A DNA stretch of 9,020 bases from Myxococcota bacterium (lineage in GTDB: Bacteria; Myxococcota_C; UBA6777), in NCBI GenBank assembly GCA_023150835.1, contig JAKLKB010000183.1, positions 1 to 9,020 on the forward strand, written 5' to 3'. Below are positions 381 through 8,625 of the stretch, piece by piece (the first letter of the stretch is position 1; the number at the start of each line of letters is the position of its first letter). The notes beneath the pieces are model-generated. The model saw only the letters and a program-made list of their open reading frames with translations. It was not told the DNA's origin and ran no database searches. The position numbers and the translations under genes are program-made.

Positions 381-2243
381 TCAATGGGCTGCTTTGGCTT
401 TTTTTCCTGACGGGATGGCGTGCCAGATCCGCAACAACAACACAAACCCGATCACACCAAACGGCAACAAAAAGATCGGCCAGTACATCCAATCGCGTGT
501 GGTCAAAAAGCCCAACGCCACCGATTGCACCGCCGTTCCCAAATACACAAACCCATCGATCAGCCCGACCGCTGTGGCCGCCCCCTTGCGCCCGCCAAAG
601 TCCATCGTTGCCGTCCCGCTCAACAAACCGTGCGTACCGATCACCGACATCGACATCAAAAACACGATCAAGCACAACCAAAACGGATTGACCGCCAGAT
701 GCGGTGCGATCGGCAAGATCCGCGCATCACCCGCCCGCATCACTTTGTGCGATTGATCGAGGTGGATCGTCATCGACTTTCCTTCACGCACGATCGATAT
801 CGCCAAACGCCCCACCGACTCGATAGGCATCGAAACAGCCGTTGCAACGGCTTTTCGATGCGCTCGACAAGTACACTTCTTCGCATCCCACGCCGCGCCT
901 TGTTGACAACGCGAAGGAACACAGCGGATCGCCCGCCCCACTTGGCTCCACTGCTTGATATCTTTTTGCTCGTTCACCCCAACGATGCGATCTCCCACCC
1001 TGAGCGGATACGCCGCTTTGTCCTTTGCATCGACACGACCCACCACGTTGGTGTCCCCCCCCATCGTCGCCAACATAAACAACGACGCCACCACCAACGA
1101 CGCATACAACAAACCCGCCACAGGAGCCCGACGGCTCTCGAAGATCAAGTCGCTCATCCACCCCGCAAGGTTCCCACCCACCACACCCGCCACCATCAAG
1201 ATCCCCCCCCAACCCCCTTGGAGAAACGGCACCAAAAACAGCACCCCCCCCGTCAACGTCGCCCAACCAAAGGACTTCTTCTTTCGACGCAGCGCGTACG
1301 ACACCGCAAAGGACACCGCCGCCCCCACAAAAAAAGGCAAAACCGTGTGTACCCAATTCCCCCAATCTCCGCGCCTTACAAAGTGCGTCGATGGCAACAC
1401 CCACACTTCTTTCGCATAGATCGGAAACCAGTGCATCACACCGTTTCGCAACACCCCCGTGCAAAACTCGATCAGTCCGACCGTAAGGATGATCGGGTTG
1501 GTCAACACCCGCAACACGATATCCCGCAACGTCACGTCGCTCTCTTCACCGCTGCTTGCATCACCCGTGTCAAAGTCCTCATAACCCGCATGGCTCGGCT
1601 GATCCTTCAACACAAGCCACTCCACCACGAATATCGCAGCCATCAAGATCGCAGGCCCCCAAAACACCCACCACGTCGGCTTGATCGCGCCCTTGCCCGC
1701 CCCCAAAAACTCCAACAACCAGCCATTCACCGTAAAAGCCAAAAAGATCCCCGACGAGATCATCGTCCCAAAGATCCCCGAAAATCCGCCCCGTTCGCGC
1801 ACATGAAACCAATGCGAATTCACTTTGACGATCGCCACCGCCCCAAAACTCTGAAAGTACATATTCACCGCATAAAGCAGCGACATCGTGTGGGTGATGC
1901 TATCCGTAGAGGGCGGAGCCTTCGCCGTCAACACCGACTGGATATACATCCCCATCAACAGATTCATCACCCCCGATCCCGCTAATGCAAGCAAGATCGC
2001 ACGCTTTCCCCCCATCTTGTCCGTCAGTGGGCCATTCACGAGAAACGCCACACCATACGCCAACGCACCAAAGAAAAAGATCAAACCAAACGCTTCTTTG
2101 GTCATCAAACCGCCAAGCTCATTCTTCGAGACGGTCAGATTATAACGCCCCATGTACAGCAACGCATACGAGAGGCCAAGCGGAAACCAGTTGAAAAAAC
2201 GACGCACACGAAACGCCGCGCTGTGATCGAACGATGAACTCAT
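381..2243 (-). CDS. MFS transporter of the organophosphate:phosphate antiporter (GlpT-like) family with a PDZ-like insert
   Basis: The 620-residue protein probably exchanges a phosphorylated organic compound for phosphate across the inner membrane; the substrate cannot be read from sequence. Family signs are an Arg-Tyr-Asn-Leu motif in helix 1 (Arg33, like GlpT Arg45), the helix 2-3 block with YG and GPLTDK around residues 51-90, and LRNGVMHW in helix 7 (Arg266, like GlpT Arg269). GWMSD follows at 361-365. GlpT is about 450 residues, so this is long. The extra length is two additional hydrophobic segments (about 299-343) and a periplasmic PDZ-like insert (about 397-515). The start was chosen at 2243 because GAGGAG lies four bases upstream. 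The frame stays open for 110 more codons, but those look non-coding and the ATG at 2243 matches the family N-terminus. The gene diverges from the ExbD-like gene; no convincing promoter or terminator was seen. Confidence 0.9.
   Translation of the reverse strand: MSSSFDHSAAFRVRRFFNWFPLGLSYALLYMGRYNLTVSKNELGGLMTKEAFGLIFFFGALAYGVAFLVNGPLTDKMGGKRAILLALAGSGVMNLLMGMYIQSVLTAKAPPSTDSITHTMSLLYAVNMYFQSFGAVAIVKVNSHWFHVRERGGFSGIFGTMISSGIFLAFTVNGWLLEFLGAGKGAIKPTWWVFWGPAILMAAIFVVEWLVLKDQPSHAGYEDFDTGDASSGEESDVTLRDIVLRVLTNPIILTVGLIEFCTGVLRNGVMHWFPIYAKEVWVLPSTHFVRRGDWGNWVHTVLPFFVGAAVSFAVSYALRRKKKSFGWATLTGGVLFLVPFLQGGWGGILMVAGVVGGNLAGWMSDLIFESRRAPVAGLLYASLVVASLFMLATMGGDTNVVGRVDAKDKAAYPLRVGDRIVGVNEQKDIKQWSQVGRAIRCVPSRCQQGAAWDAKKCTCRAHRKAVATAVSMPIESVGRLAISIVREGKSMTIHLDQSHKVMRAGDARILPIAPHLAVNPFWLCLIVFLMSMSVIGTHGLLSGTATMDFGGRKGAATAVGLIDGFVYLGTAVQSVALGFLTTRDWMYWPIFLLPFGVIGFVLLLRIWHAIPSGKKAKAAH
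753..1004 (-). other. PDZ-like domain inserted in the transporter (residues about 414-497)
   Basis: The segment after the helix matching GlpT helix 9 reads LRVGDRIVGVN (414-424), which matches the carboxylate-binding loop and second strand of PDZ domains. It closes with two strand-like stretches around LAISIVREGK and MTIHL (480-495), as PDZ domains do. Between them sits an extra stretch with four cysteines (441, 446, 457, 459), possibly a disulfide or metal site. Arg-rich flanks (ESRR before the preceding helix) place this loop outside the membrane, in the periplasm. The PDZ call rests on motif reading, not a profile search. Confidence 0.7.
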
Positions 2244-2558: not shown

Positions 2559-3086
2559 ATGCCACGCAAACACCGAGAAATCGAAGCCGTCGAAGAAATC
2601 AACATCATGCCCCTGATGAACATCATCATGCTACTGATCCCCTTCCTGATTATGAGCACCGAATTCGTCAAGATCGGTGTGATCAACGTCAGCGCCCCCT
2701 CCACTTGCGCTTCTTGTGGTGATAAAAAAACCGAGCCGACCATCCGCCCACCCGCACCGCTCAACCTCACGCTCAACCTCACTTCCCAAGGGGTCACTCT
2801 CCTCACACGCGGCGCTCGTATCCCCCAAGGATGCGACCTCACCCCCAAAGGCATCACCGCACACTCCGAAACACCCACCTTCCCCGACTATCGGCACCAA
2901 CAGGCATCTGCCCTGCGCGCTTGTCTCGCCAAGATCAAAGCCCTCTTCCCCCAAGAAGACAAGATTATCGTCATGGCCGACCCATCGATCCCCTATCACA
3001 AGATCATCGAACTCATGGACATCTCCCGCGAAGCCAACAACAAACCCCTCTTCCCCCTCGTCATGCTCTCCGCCGGCCTCCTCTAA
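2559..3086 (+). CDS. ExbD/TolR-family protein with Asn in place of the membrane Asp
   Basis: The 175-residue protein has the ExbD layout: a short charged cytoplasmic tail (1-13), one membrane helix (about 16-34), then a periplasmic domain. The stretch INIMPLMN aligns with the E. coli ExbD stretch INVTPFID, so the proton-path Asp25 is Asn21 here. ExbD proteins normally pair with ExbB to couple the proton gradient to outer-membrane or envelope work. No ExbB/TolQ or TonB gene lies in the window. The periplasmic part carries CASC (two Cys, just after the helix) and a lone Cys in the middle, and ends in a segment like the ExbD C-terminal fold (KIIVMADPSIPYHKIIELMD). TAGGAG at 2547-2552 supports the start. 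The next gene is convergent, 20 bp away. Family call is firm; the function without Asp is open. Confidence 0.88.
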   Translation: MPRKHREIEAVEEINIMPLMNIIMLLIPFLIMSTEFVKIGVINVSAPSTCASCGDKKTEPTIRPPAPLNLTLNLTSQGVTLLTRGARIPQGCDLTPKGITAHSETPTFPDYRHQQASALRACLAKIKALFPQEDKIIVMADPSIPYHKIIELMDISREANNKPLFPLVMLSAGLL

Positions 3087-5210: not shown

Positions 5211-7091
5211 ATGCTTGCCACACAACCTTATACCGATATCCACACGTTCCTCGAACAACACAACAACAAAGAACTCTTGCGCTTCGTTGCCATCGGCTCG
5301 GTAGACGACGGAAAATCCACACTGATCGGACGCCTGCTCCACGACACCCACCAAGTCTACGAAGATCAACTCGCTGATGCACGCGCCCACAGCGCCGACG
5401 GCGAGATCGACTTTGCCCGTATCACCGACGGTCTCAGCGCCGAACGCGAACAAGGCATCACCATCGACGTCGCCTACCGCTACTTCGCCACCGAAAAACG
5501 CAAGTTCATCATCGCCGATACCCCCGGACACGTCCAATACACCCGCAATATGGCCACAGGAGCCTCCACCGCTGATGTCGCCATCATCTTGATCGATGCC
5601 CGTCTTGGCGTACTCCAACAATCCAAGCGCCATGCGTATATCGCTTCGCTACTCGGCATCCCCTATCTTGCCGTTGCCATCAACAAAATGGACCTGCTCG
5701 ACTTTGACCCCAAAGTCTTCTACGCCATCCAACAAGAATTCTTGACCTTCGCTGAAAAGCTCGAATTTGTCGGCCTGCGCTTTTTCCCGATCAGCGCCCT
5801 CAAAGGCGATAACCTGCTCCACCCAAGCGAACGCACCCCTTGGTACACCGACGGCCCGCTACTGCGCTTCCTCGAAGAAGTCCCGCTGCTGCGCGATGTA
5901 GAACATCAGCCCTTCCGCTTCCCCGTTCAACTGGTGTTGCGACCTCATCTTGATTATCGCGGTTTTGCCGGAACCATCGCCTCTGGCGTGATCCGTACTG
6001 GCGACAGCGTGACGGTCTTTCCAAGCGGGAAGACCTCTCGCATCAAATCGATCGATACATACGAAGGCCCCGTCGATACGGCCTTTTCACCGCAATCTGT
6101 AGTGCTTCGTATCACCGACGAAGTGGATATCAGTCGTGGGGATATGCTCGTGCGAAGCGATCAAGCCCCGCCCTACGCAGCCCATACCCTCGATGCCACC
6201 GTCGTTTGGCTTGACGAACAACCGCTTGACCCCAACAAAGCCTACCAGATCAAACACACCACCCGCTCCGTCAAAGCCCACATCGAGCGCGTCCATTGGA
6301 AAAGCGACCCCAACACCCTCGACCACCTCCCCACCACTCACCTCGCCCTCAACGAGATCGGACGGCTTTCTTTAACCTGCCATCGGCCTCTCTTTTTCGA
6401 TCCCTACAAAAACAACCGACACACGGGCGCTTTTATCTTAATCGACACCCTCACCAACCACACCGTCGCCGCAGGGATGCTACTCCCGCTTCCTCCCCAA
6501 GAGATCGCCCCCGATCTTGAACAACAACGCGCCAACGCCCGCTTGATCCGCCCTCGATCCGAAGTCTCCCAAAGCGAACGCACCGAACGACTCCGCCAAC
6601 ATCCCGTCTCCGTCTGGCTTTCTGGACTCCCGGGCGCTGGTCGCACCGCGCTCGCTTATGCCCTCGAACGCCGCTTGTTTGACCTCGGCTATTCCAGCCA
6701 CGTCATCGGCATGACACAAGAACGCCTGCTCCATTCTGCCGAAGAAGCCGCCATGCTTTGCCGACAACTCAACAGCGCCGGACTCCTGTGCATCTACCCG
6801 GGCGATAGCCACTCCCGCTCTGCCCGCGATTATGCTCGCGAGATCATCGGATCTGACCGCTTTTTGTGCGTCGACATCGATGTCCCCCAAGAGCTTTGCC
6901 TCCAACGCCTCGAAACACAACAAGATCCTCGCGTCCCCCTCTTTCATCGCAGCGCCCCACTCTACGAACCTCCCCATCAGCCCGACCTCCGCGCCACCAT
7001 CCTTGAAGACCAACTCGAATCCACCGTCCACCAGATCGTCTCCCTGCTTCGCCAAAAATCCATCCTCCTCCCCATCGAAGAAAAAACCTGA
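5211..7091 (+). CDS. Sulfate adenylyltransferase subunit 1 fused to a degenerate APS-kinase domain (CysNC)
   Basis: The 626-residue protein is the GTPase subunit of ATP sulfurylase, partner of CysD. The N-terminal part is a full CysN: G1 GSVDDGKST (29-37), GITI (82-85), DTPGH (103-107), NKMD (158-161), SAL (195-197), then two beta-barrel domains to about residue 430. DTPGH is followed by Val108, where E. coli CysN has Glu. Residues about 464-616 match the APS-kinase (CysC) fold: VWLSGLPGAG, the helix after it, and LYEPP like the VYEAP of E. coli CysC. However the P-loop Lys is Arg478, the DGDNVR and GFS-DR-EN-RR stretch is missing, and the KGLYKKAR loop is replaced. The fused domain is therefore probably not an active APS kinase. 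AAGGAG at 5196-5201 supports the start. It is likely co-transcribed with cysD despite the repeat between them. Confidence 0.95.
   Translation: MLATQPYTDIHTFLEQHNNKELLRFVAIGSVDDGKSTLIGRLLHDTHQVYEDQLADARAHSADGEIDFARITDGLSAEREQGITIDVAYRYFATEKRKFIIADTPGHVQYTRNMATGASTADVAIILIDARLGVLQQSKRHAYIASLLGIPYLAVAINKMDLLDFDPKVFYAIQQEFLTFAEKLEFVGLRFFPISALKGDNLLHPSERTPWYTDGPLLRFLEEVPLLRDVEHQPFRFPVQLVLRPHLDYRGFAGTIASGVIRTGDSVTVFPSGKTSRIKSIDTYEGPVDTAFSPQSVVLRITDEVDISRGDMLVRSDQAPPYAAHTLDATVVWLDEQPLDPNKAYQIKHTTRSVKAHIERVHWKSDPNTLDHLPTTHLALNEIGRLSLTCHRPLFFDPYKNNRHTGAFILIDTLTNHTVAAGMLLPLPPQEIAPDLEQQRANARLIRPRSEVSQSERTERLRQHPVSVWLSGLPGAGRTALAYALERRLFDLGYSSHVIGMTQERLLHSAEEAAMLCRQLNSAGLLCIYPGDSHSRSARDYAREIIGSDRFLCVDIDVPQELCLQRLETQQDPRVPLFHRSAPLYEPPHQPDLRATILEDQLESTVHQIVSLLRQKSILLPIEEKT
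6588..7088 (+). other. Degenerate APS-kinase (CysC-like) domain
   Basis: Covers residues about 460-626. Compared with E. coli CysC, the Walker A GLSGSGKST reads GLPGAGRTA, the APS-binding stretch starting at DGDNVR is deleted to a short IGMTQERLLHSAEE link, and the ISPHRAER motif is DSHSRSAR. The general length and ending are kept and the frame is intact, so the domain is maintained as protein rather than a nonsense-bearing relic. It may be structural or regulatory. Confidence 0.75.
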
Positions 7092-7115
7092 TCCGCCCTC
7101 CCACCCCCAAGCCTC

Positions 7116-7145
7116 TTGCGATATCTCCCATCCCCCCCGTATGAT
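7116..7145 (+). promoter_or_regulatory. Candidate promoter of the six-helix membrane protein gene
   Basis: TTGCGA (7116-7121, four of six to the -35 consensus), an 18-base spacer and TATGAT (7140-7145, five of six to the -10 consensus) lie about 45 bp before the start codon. This gives the gene a likely transcription start of its own after cysNC. Confidence 0.45.
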
Positions 7146-7178
7146 CGACTCCGCCCCACACCAACAACCTTCACGTAG

Positions 7179-7182
7179 GGAG
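7179..7182 (+). promoter_or_regulatory. Ribosome-binding site of the membrane protein gene
   Basis: GGAG, within AGGGAG, lies six bases before the ATG at 7189. It selects this start; the frame stays open upstream into cysNC but would overlap that gene. Confidence 0.7.
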
Positions 7183-7188
7183 AAACGA

Positions 7189-8625
7189 ATGGCCGATCAT
7201 TTTTTGTTCTTTCTCATCGACAACGAACGCTACGCTTTGGACGGAGAGATCCGCTTTGCAGAAGGCACAGGCGACGATCGCAGTGAATGGTCCATGCGCG
7301 TCTTGCGGCACGAAAAAACGGGGGAGATCTGTTACCTCGAAGACGACCAACTCCACGTCATGTATGCCTATTGGACTCCCGAAGAAGCGATCAACGCCAA
7401 GAAATACCGCGTGGATACTTACGAAAAACACGCCGTCGAAGTCCTCCAAGGCGATGAGATCTTTGAAAAAAGCAACCTTGATCTCGAATACGGCACGATC
7501 GACAACAACAAACTCTCCGAACAAGCATGGGGGATGTTTGAAGGTTCCACCGATGTCTTGGTCGTCAACAAAAAGGAGCTTTTGTTTGGCCGCCGTCTCG
7601 TTAAAGATCACGAAAACGTCTACTACTCCGATATCTTTCCCGCTGAAAAGCTCCAGCGCGTGGCTCATCCCCGCCGCACTCCGCCCGCTTTCGGCGAGAT
7701 GCTTTTTGTGATCGCTTTTGTCGCGCTTTCGATCACAGGGATCATCGACATCTTTGTATTGATGAAGCCGATGGGACCGGACTTTTCCTCGATTTTCTTG
7801 TACGGTGGTTTTGTTGCTTGGGCGATCTGGGTATTTGTCGAGCGCGATTCGTGGCTTTACGCAACCACTCGCTTTTGGGCCGCAGCACTCGGCATTTACC
7901 TTTGCACTGTTCTGTTGGACAATCACATCCACCACACCCATCCCACCAGCTATCGGGCCTTTGTATTGTGGCATATGCTCATCCCCGTCTTACTCGTTGG
8001 GGGACTCCGCTTGTTCTGGCGCAAAGGCTTTGCCGTCCTCTCCCGAAGCGCCCTTACTGCCGCCTTTTGGGTGGTGCTTCTTCACGGCTTCGGGATCTTG
8101 ATCGTCAGTTGCGAAGACGATGCGTGGTGGGGCGGCGACTTTTTTTGGTATCTTGGAGCCCTGCCCTACGGCCACGCCTACACCTTGCTTTTTGTGATCA
8201 TCTTGCTTGTCAAAGCCCGTGATTATCTCTATGTCCCGATGGACAAAGAAGGTTTCATCAAACAGATCCACAAACTCCAAGAGATCCTCCAACGCACACC
8301 CTCCACCAACCCCGAACAAAACAAAGCCGACGCTGAGATCTGCGACGATTTGGCCGATGCCATCGAGATATCTTCCACACCCGAAGTTGCGGCTCTCGCA
8401 CCGCTACTCGAACAATTCCGCACCCTCACACAGATCATCGAAGCCTATGCCACCAAGGCAGAAGAGATATCCGAAGATCCCGATGTACACCAAGACTTGG
8501 CGGTCCTATGCACCGACCTCCAAGAGATCATCGACTTCCTCGACAGCCAACAACCCGTCCACAGCCTTCGCCTATCTCCCTTTTTACGCGCTGTCACCTT
8601 GGACTTGACCATCCCCACAGCCTAA
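7189..8625 (+). CDS. Six-helix membrane protein of unknown function
   Basis: I do not recognise a family for this 478-residue protein. Residues 1-165 are soluble and acidic, with aromatic-rich strands (MADHFLFFLIDNERYALDGE at the start), and no signal peptide. Six hydrophobic segments follow at about 168-192, 200-217, 224-243, 255-276, 286-307 and 317-341. Loops carry WGGDFFW, HIHHTH (246-251) and CEDD (308-311), which could face metal or protons, but that is speculation. Residues 350-478 are a Glu/Gln-rich, mostly helical cytoplasmic tail with possible coiled-coil stretches (about 353-369 and 400-455). The layout suggests a regulated membrane protein or sensor rather than a channel of known type. 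It follows cysNC by 97 bp with its own candidate promoter and site for ribosome binding, so a link to sulfate use is not required. Confidence 0.85.
   Translation: MADHFLFFLIDNERYALDGEIRFAEGTGDDRSEWSMRVLRHEKTGEICYLEDDQLHVMYAYWTPEEAINAKKYRVDTYEKHAVEVLQGDEIFEKSNLDLEYGTIDNNKLSEQAWGMFEGSTDVLVVNKKELLFGRRLVKDHENVYYSDIFPAEKLQRVAHPRRTPPAFGEMLFVIAFVALSITGIIDIFVLMKPMGPDFSSIFLYGGFVAWAIWVFVERDSWLYATTRFWAAALGIYLCTVLLDNHIHHTHPTSYRAFVLWHMLIPVLLVGGLRLFWRKGFAVLSRSALTAAFWVVLLHGFGILIVSCEDDAWWGGDFFWYLGALPYGHAYTLLFVIILLVKARDYLYVPMDKEGFIKQIHKLQEILQRTPSTNPEQNKADAEICDDLADAIEISSTPEVAALAPLLEQFRTLTQIIEAYATKAEEISEDPDVHQDLAVLCTDLQEIIDFLDSQQPVHSLRLSPFLRAVTLDLTIPTA

Follow-up and report, generated by a model that had tools for sequence, protein, structure and literature searches.

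The window analysed here, a stretch of 9,020 nucleotides from a Myxococcota bacterium, carries on its reverse strand the gene for a 620-residue GlpT-like transporter of the MFS in which a PDZ domain is inserted between two membrane helices (Table 1). A GAGGAG-type ribosome-binding site lies right before its ATG. Divergent from it is a lone ExbD/TolR-like gene (2559-3086), and a similar frame adjoins the orthologue at locus L010. Further along, positions 5211-7091 encode a fusion of CysN and APS kinase; the P-loop of the kinase is GLPGAGRTA, with Arg in place of Lys, and the match to APS_kinase is weak (39.9 bits), so that the kinase half may be inactive. An open frame of 597 codons (6832-8625), the later part of which has the character of a multi-helix membrane protein, gave no Pfam or NCBIfam match, and translation probably begins at a point far into the frame (MADHFLFF...).

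Table 1. Features of the transporter gene in the window, and partner genes at homologous loci (positions within each locus)
Feature	Position	Strand	Basis
OPA/GlpT-like MFS transporter gene with inserted PDZ domain, 620 aa	381..2243	-	ATG at 2243, stop 381-383, coding 384-2243; translation
R33 codon (equivalent of GlpT R45, TM1)	2145..2147	-	E. coli GlpT alignment; at least 90% conserved
TM7, bearing R266 (counterpart of GlpT R269; codon 1446-1448)	1434..1529	-	Invariant; E. coli GlpT alignment
Additional membrane hairpin of two helices (297-320 and 326-341, linked by basic RRKKKSF)	1221..1355	-	AF2 helices; absent from plain homologues
TM9, directly before PDZ (three-residue linker)	1065..1130	-	AF2 model
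Complete TM9-TM10 insert (residues ~394-518)	690..1064	-	Absent from plain homologues; family-profile match 690-1055, E 2.9e-36 (the window protein is itself 1 of the profile's 22 rows)
PDZ fold: strands 397-404, 419-423, helix 432-440, strands 479-486, 489-496, 512-516	696..1055	-	AF2 model, S2P profile matches, hhalign
Cys-rich beta-hairpin excursion CVPSRCQQGAAWDAKKCTCRA (C441, C446, W452, D453, C457, C459)	861..923	-	Family conservation
Conserved AGDxR motif and segment up to last strand (residues 497-511)	711..755	-	G505, R508 invariant; A504, D506 at least 90%
TM10, directly after PDZ	594..686	-	AF2 model
HAD gene, L053	3207-3968
HAD gene, L062	3238-3957
P-loop kinase-like gene, L044	5837-6817
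P-loop kinase-like gene, L068	5701-6423
P-loop kinase-like gene, L078	3227-3979
P-loop kinase-like gene, L079	3247-4005
P-loop kinase-like gene, L082	3735-4718
P-loop kinase-like gene, L083	5434-6144
P-loop kinase-like gene, L105	5352-6068

The initial annotation had described the protein as a GlpT-type transporter, and the profile searches, the predicted structure and the alignment with E. coli GlpT were all in agreement with this assignment. In Pfam, the protein matched MFS_1 (PF07690) with 77.8 bits (E 9.5e-22), above the cut-off of 33.4. The nearest NCBIfam models were those of the organophosphate transporters PgtP, GlpT, UhpC and UhpT, all scoring well under their cut-offs: among these equivalog families, TIGR00881 came out best with 93.3 bits against a cut-off of 407.75, and the glpT model reached 66.6 bits against 632.55. 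The transporter is OPA-like and is none of the named GlpT/UhpT/PgtP transporters. AlphaFold2 (AF2) run on a 56-row alignment gave a model with 14 TM helices (pLDDT 91.4, pTM 0.91), which superseded an uninformative prediction of the whole protein from its single sequence (pLDDT 42). Among the matches listed, the best for the model were SLC37A2, GlpT (1pw4) and SLC37A4; it also matched MFS chains at Z scores reaching 42.0 (rmsd 2.9 over 379 aligned residues). Since only MFS structures were among the matches listed, this whole-model search is silent on the PDZ domain, for or against. An orthologue in another genome of the window's genus is 97% identical to the transporter. As regards the ends of the family's proteins, most members, plain (insert-free) and PDZ type alike, finish with His after Gly or Ala (GGH, GAH or AAH; positions 384-392 in the window), and the plain homologues L013, L014 and L015 carry an N-terminal extension of ~110-140 residues that includes hydrophobic segments as well as a stretch rich in Ala and Lys.

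Alignment of the window protein with seven insert-free homologues located two insertions. One comprises ~117-120 extra residues and falls precisely between the helices that correspond to TM9 and TM10 of GlpT, so that the earlier call of a loop of more than 110 residues at 699-1061 was correct to within a few codons. The sequence features that had drawn attention to it are likewise present, namely LRVGDRIVGVN, the final strand pair RLAISIVREGKSMTIHL and four cysteines at residues 441, 446, 457 and 459. The second insertion, at residues ~283-343, places a hairpin of two TM helices between TM7 and TM8 and had been missed in the initial annotation. By the positive-inside rule, the RRKKKSF stretch of the hairpin would lie in the cytoplasm, which places the PDZ domain in the periplasm. 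This is the side originally proposed for the loop, and the transporter family, the AF2 model with its structural matches and the GlpT alignment bear it out. More than 30 homologous loci carry the same TM9-TM10 insert, and G417, D418, W432, C446, C459, R486, G505 and R508 are invariant in 25 aligned inserts, so that the feature is not due to chance. An assembly chimera was rejected, given that both insertions occur in the 97% orthologue from the second genome of the genus and in many distant homologues.

Proteases, RseP among them, are the best-known carriers of the PDZ fold. When the insert was searched alone in Pfam, PDZ (PF00595; E = 0.022, 15.5 bits against a cut-off of 23.2) and PDZ_6 (PF17820; E 0.029, 14.6 bits against 27) both remained below threshold, as might be expected if the insert were some other small beta-rich domain bearing an LxxGDxI motif by chance. 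A profile built from 22 homologous inserts gave a different answer when compared with PDB sequences, the leading matches being PDZ domains of the RseP/S2P (site-2 protease) type: A. aeolicus RseP at E 1.8e-9, a value summed over both its PDZ domains, and E. coli RseP at 0.0018. These alignments are confined to the strand-helix region in the middle and the closing pair of strands, a restriction that also favours a non-PDZ domain. Against it, the insert profile matched the PDZ domains of the host's own S2P homologues in hhalign with a probability of 93% (E 2.6e-7), while the negative controls gave 0.3% and 0.1%. In addition, the corresponding loop of the Planctomycetota homologue L069 holds two PDZ modules, with scores of 37.0, 35.5 and 35.3 bits that exceed the Pfam cut-offs of PF00595, PF17820 and PF13180. 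Finally, the secondary structure of the insert in the AF2 model shows the order of strands and helix published for the permuted PDZ domains of RseP, in which the chain begins at strand C and finishes at strand B (PMC8098476). The PDZ blocks were predicted with pLDDT values of 89-98, falling to 62-73 at residues 461-480.

Profile searches, the L069 match and the structural model thus concur, and neither of the outcomes named beforehand as contradicting a PDZ domain occurred: the predicted structure has the PDZ strand order, and a homologue matches Pfam PDZ families. The PDZ domain proposed in the initial annotation therefore stands, sub-threshold as the insert alone is in Pfam, and we regard the assignment of both the transporter family and the PDZ domain as very likely. 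The non-PDZ alternative is largely refuted and very improbable. The S2P/RseP protease core itself is absent from the transporter, the remainder of which, outside the insert, is MFS according to Pfam and the structure matches.

The four cysteines belong to a conserved motif, C-x4-C...WD-x3-C-x-C, in which C446 and C459 are invariant and C441, W452, D453 and C457 are kept in at least 90% of the family. In the AF2 model the Cys-bearing hairpin lies at residues 450-461. The positions of C441 and C457 were jointly lost in one lineage (L041, L050, L122, L124 and L125), where those of C446 and C459 were retained. Such a joint loss reads as a single evolutionary event and suggests that disulfides C441-C457 and C446-C459 form in the periplasm. 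A zinc ribbon is less likely because this lineage dropped the first and third cysteines and kept the second and fourth.

To determine how widely the architecture is spread, public bacterial genomes were scanned with core motifs, and the best 80 of hundreds of relatives were retained. The hairpin and the PDZ domain with its WD-CxC segment were present in 29 of these best 80, nearly all labelled Myxococcota or Deltaproteobacteria, and additional PDZ-type copies came from the window's genus. The PDZ type also occurs in at least 7 of 195 genomes sampled from the Myxococcota-like phylum, some of which may duplicate genomes among the best 80. In a quick tree built from the MFS core alone, which has open forks, all PDZ-type members grouped together with two Planctomycetota proteins, L077 and L084, that keep the hairpin and have no PDZ domain (SH-aLRT 97), and the hairpin was gained once. 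The PDZ architecture forms one clade, nearly all Myxococcota, with a few other bacteria. Being conserved across Myxococcota and beyond, it is an established architecture and no accident of assembly. Plain homologues exist, and L077 and L084 do without a PDZ domain, so neither the fold nor the family depends on it.

Five genomes represent the window's phylum. Two of them, which belong to the window's genus, carry the PDZ type. In the remaining three all homologues are plain, and the best-matching ones cluster elsewhere, with Myxococcus and Archangium proteins. This distribution makes it possible that the window's genus acquired its PDZ-type transporter horizontally. The TM9-TM10 loop is occupied in other lineages as well. 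Six KSB1 homologues (L067, L068, L071, L072, L073 and L076) have a ~100-residue insert at the same site, with no sign of a diverged PDZ domain in profile comparisons (0.3% against the PDZ insert alignment and 0.1% against the host PDZ domains). This KSB1 insert had no PDB profile match and is, by eye, possibly of beta-alpha-beta-beta-alpha-beta order. Since the KSB1 proteins hold an unrelated domain there and L069 a double PDZ, the site evidently tolerates different periplasmic domains.

With respect to the substrate, R45 and R269 of GlpT are its phosphate-binding arginines. The OPA-type phosphate-site arginines are present in the window protein as R33 and R266 and are conserved family-wide. 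The structural matches with GlpT and with SLC37 proteins, which are sugar-phosphate transporters, point to the same kind of site. The neighbouring genes were also considered. A cytoplasmic HAD phosphatase-like gene (FDLDATLFDNxPR ... YLTGRD), with no evident signal peptide, is the immediate same-strand, operon-like neighbour of the transporter gene at seven loci from several phyla (L053, L062, L099, L106, L108, L110 and L116). Among the Myxococcota-phylum genomes tallied with both genes, from a list covering 120 of 136 genomes, the two lay within 5 kb in 76 of 107 and within 20 kb in 84 of 107. In the window's phylum, the two genomes with the PDZ type have the HAD gene, and the search did not find it in the other three; in the window's own genome it lies on a different contig (41% identity), not beside the transporter. 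Of seven PDZ-type genomes in the Myxococcota phylum, two have the HAD gene adjacent and three unlinked, and in two it was not found. Its co-occurrence with the PDZ type (5 of 7 genomes) is not above the phylum background (136 of 195), so the link is a property of the transporter family and not of the PDZ domain. Some family members adjoin instead a P-loop kinase-like gene (GRPAAGKSE..IDFLKKTP ... EFARGSEHGG ... SILEHGLPD). This adjacency recurs in several phyla; the uncharacterised product matched no Pfam family significantly, and the gene was not found in the window's phylum. Our best inference for the putative substrate, drawn from these sequence data, is a phosphorylated compound.

As to the role of the inserted domain, the tandem PDZ domains of RseP act as a size-exclusion filter above the membrane domain (PMC7728848), and their grooves face the membrane (PMC8098476). 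In its permuted fold, the insert has both termini at the membrane side, in resemblance to RseP, whose PDZ domains filter rather than tether. The very short linkers, together with pLDDT values of mostly 89-98 and a pTM of 0.91, argue for a rigidly placed domain. An RseP-like permuted fold, for the most part confidently predicted and held on three-residue linkers, is the basis of the reading that we prefer. According to it, the protein would be an MFS transporter with 14 helices that belongs to the organophosphate:phosphate-antiporter type and imports a phosphorylated compound. Its PDZ domain, of the RseP type and held together by two disulfides, would hang in the TM9-TM10 loop above the opening of the C-domain on the periplasmic side, where it would serve as a lid or filter, limiting or adjusting entry into the transport cavity. 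We assign this reading as a whole a probability of about 0.45; the lid mechanism, which is proposed by analogy with RseP, is tentative and falls short of an even chance.

The initial annotation had instead proposed that the transporter may be gated by, or tethered to, a periplasmic protein or peptide. The PDZ domain would then be a docking module that recognises either the C-terminal end or an internal segment of a partner in the periplasm, such as a phosphatase, nuclease or lipoprotein. The reality of the PDZ fold is in accordance with this idea, as are the secreted phosphoesterases encoded near some loci (a 5'-nucleotidase beside L069 and a metallophosphatase upstream of L051), but no secreted neighbour is conserved across the PDZ-type loci. 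Moreover, the last strand reads RILPI in the window protein and RxLxAGP in the family consensus where the host S2P/RseP PDZ has GLIGI (register inferred), so that the canonical carboxylate-binding, GLGF-like motif is not evident. Docking is for these reasons a doubtful alternative, though one with an appreciable chance. The PDZ domain could also be a structural or oligomerisation element, either a stabilising periplasmic cap or a dimer contact together with the TM hairpin, with no ligand or gating role. The hairpin and the PDZ domain do mostly co-occur, and the occupation of the same loop by the KSB1 domain and by the double PDZ of L069 fits a purely structural part; yet AGDxR, WD and CxC are strongly conserved beyond the residues of the fold, which suggests a specific function and renders such a passive role unlikely.

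If the lid reading is extended further, the proteins might represent an undescribed class of 14-TM MFS transporters in which an RseP-like, disulfide-stapled PDZ domain controls the periplasmic entrance and senses a peptide, protein or redox signal. They would then be ligand-regulated secondary transporters whose TM9-TM10 loop has repeatedly accepted regulatory domains (PDZ, double PDZ and the KSB1 domain). We consider this extension speculative.

To our knowledge, folded soluble domains within a loop are rare among MFS transporters. No MFS-PDZ fusion was described in the literature searched, which does not by itself prove absence elsewhere; the result is consistent with the initial annotation, in which no described fusion of this kind was known either. 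What is found here is a known transporter fold and a known domain in a widely conserved and apparently undescribed arrangement. With it, the range of RseP-type PDZ domains widens from intramembrane proteases to include a secondary transporter. Whether such domains are general lids for membrane cavities can be tested cleanly here, as there are natural homologues with and without the PDZ domain, and with and without the TM hairpin.

Compared with the GlpT/OPA-family MFS transporters (GlpT, UhpT and PgtP; SLC37A2 and SLC37A4), the window protein shares the 12-TM core, the MFS_1 match and both phosphate-binding arginines, and adds the TM hairpin (7a/7b) and the PDZ domain between TM9 and TM10. Its aligned identity with GlpT is 24%, and GlpT K80 is not kept, being replaced by F67. 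The KSB1 homologues belong to the same transporter family and use the same insertion loop, but their insert is unrelated to PDZ and they have no hairpin. L069, also of the same family, resembles the window protein in the insertion site and in the ends of the insert, and differs from it in having two PDZ modules, without the Cys motif and without the TM hairpin. For their part, the PDZ domains of RseP/S2P are alike in profile similarity, in the permuted strand order, in their periplasmic location and in being inserted into a polytopic protein between two of its TM helices. In contrast to them, the PDZ domain described here is single, its host is a transporter and not a protease, and between its helix B and strand F it carries a conserved beta-hairpin with four cysteines; it also has AGDxR, and a GLIGI-like motif is not evident.
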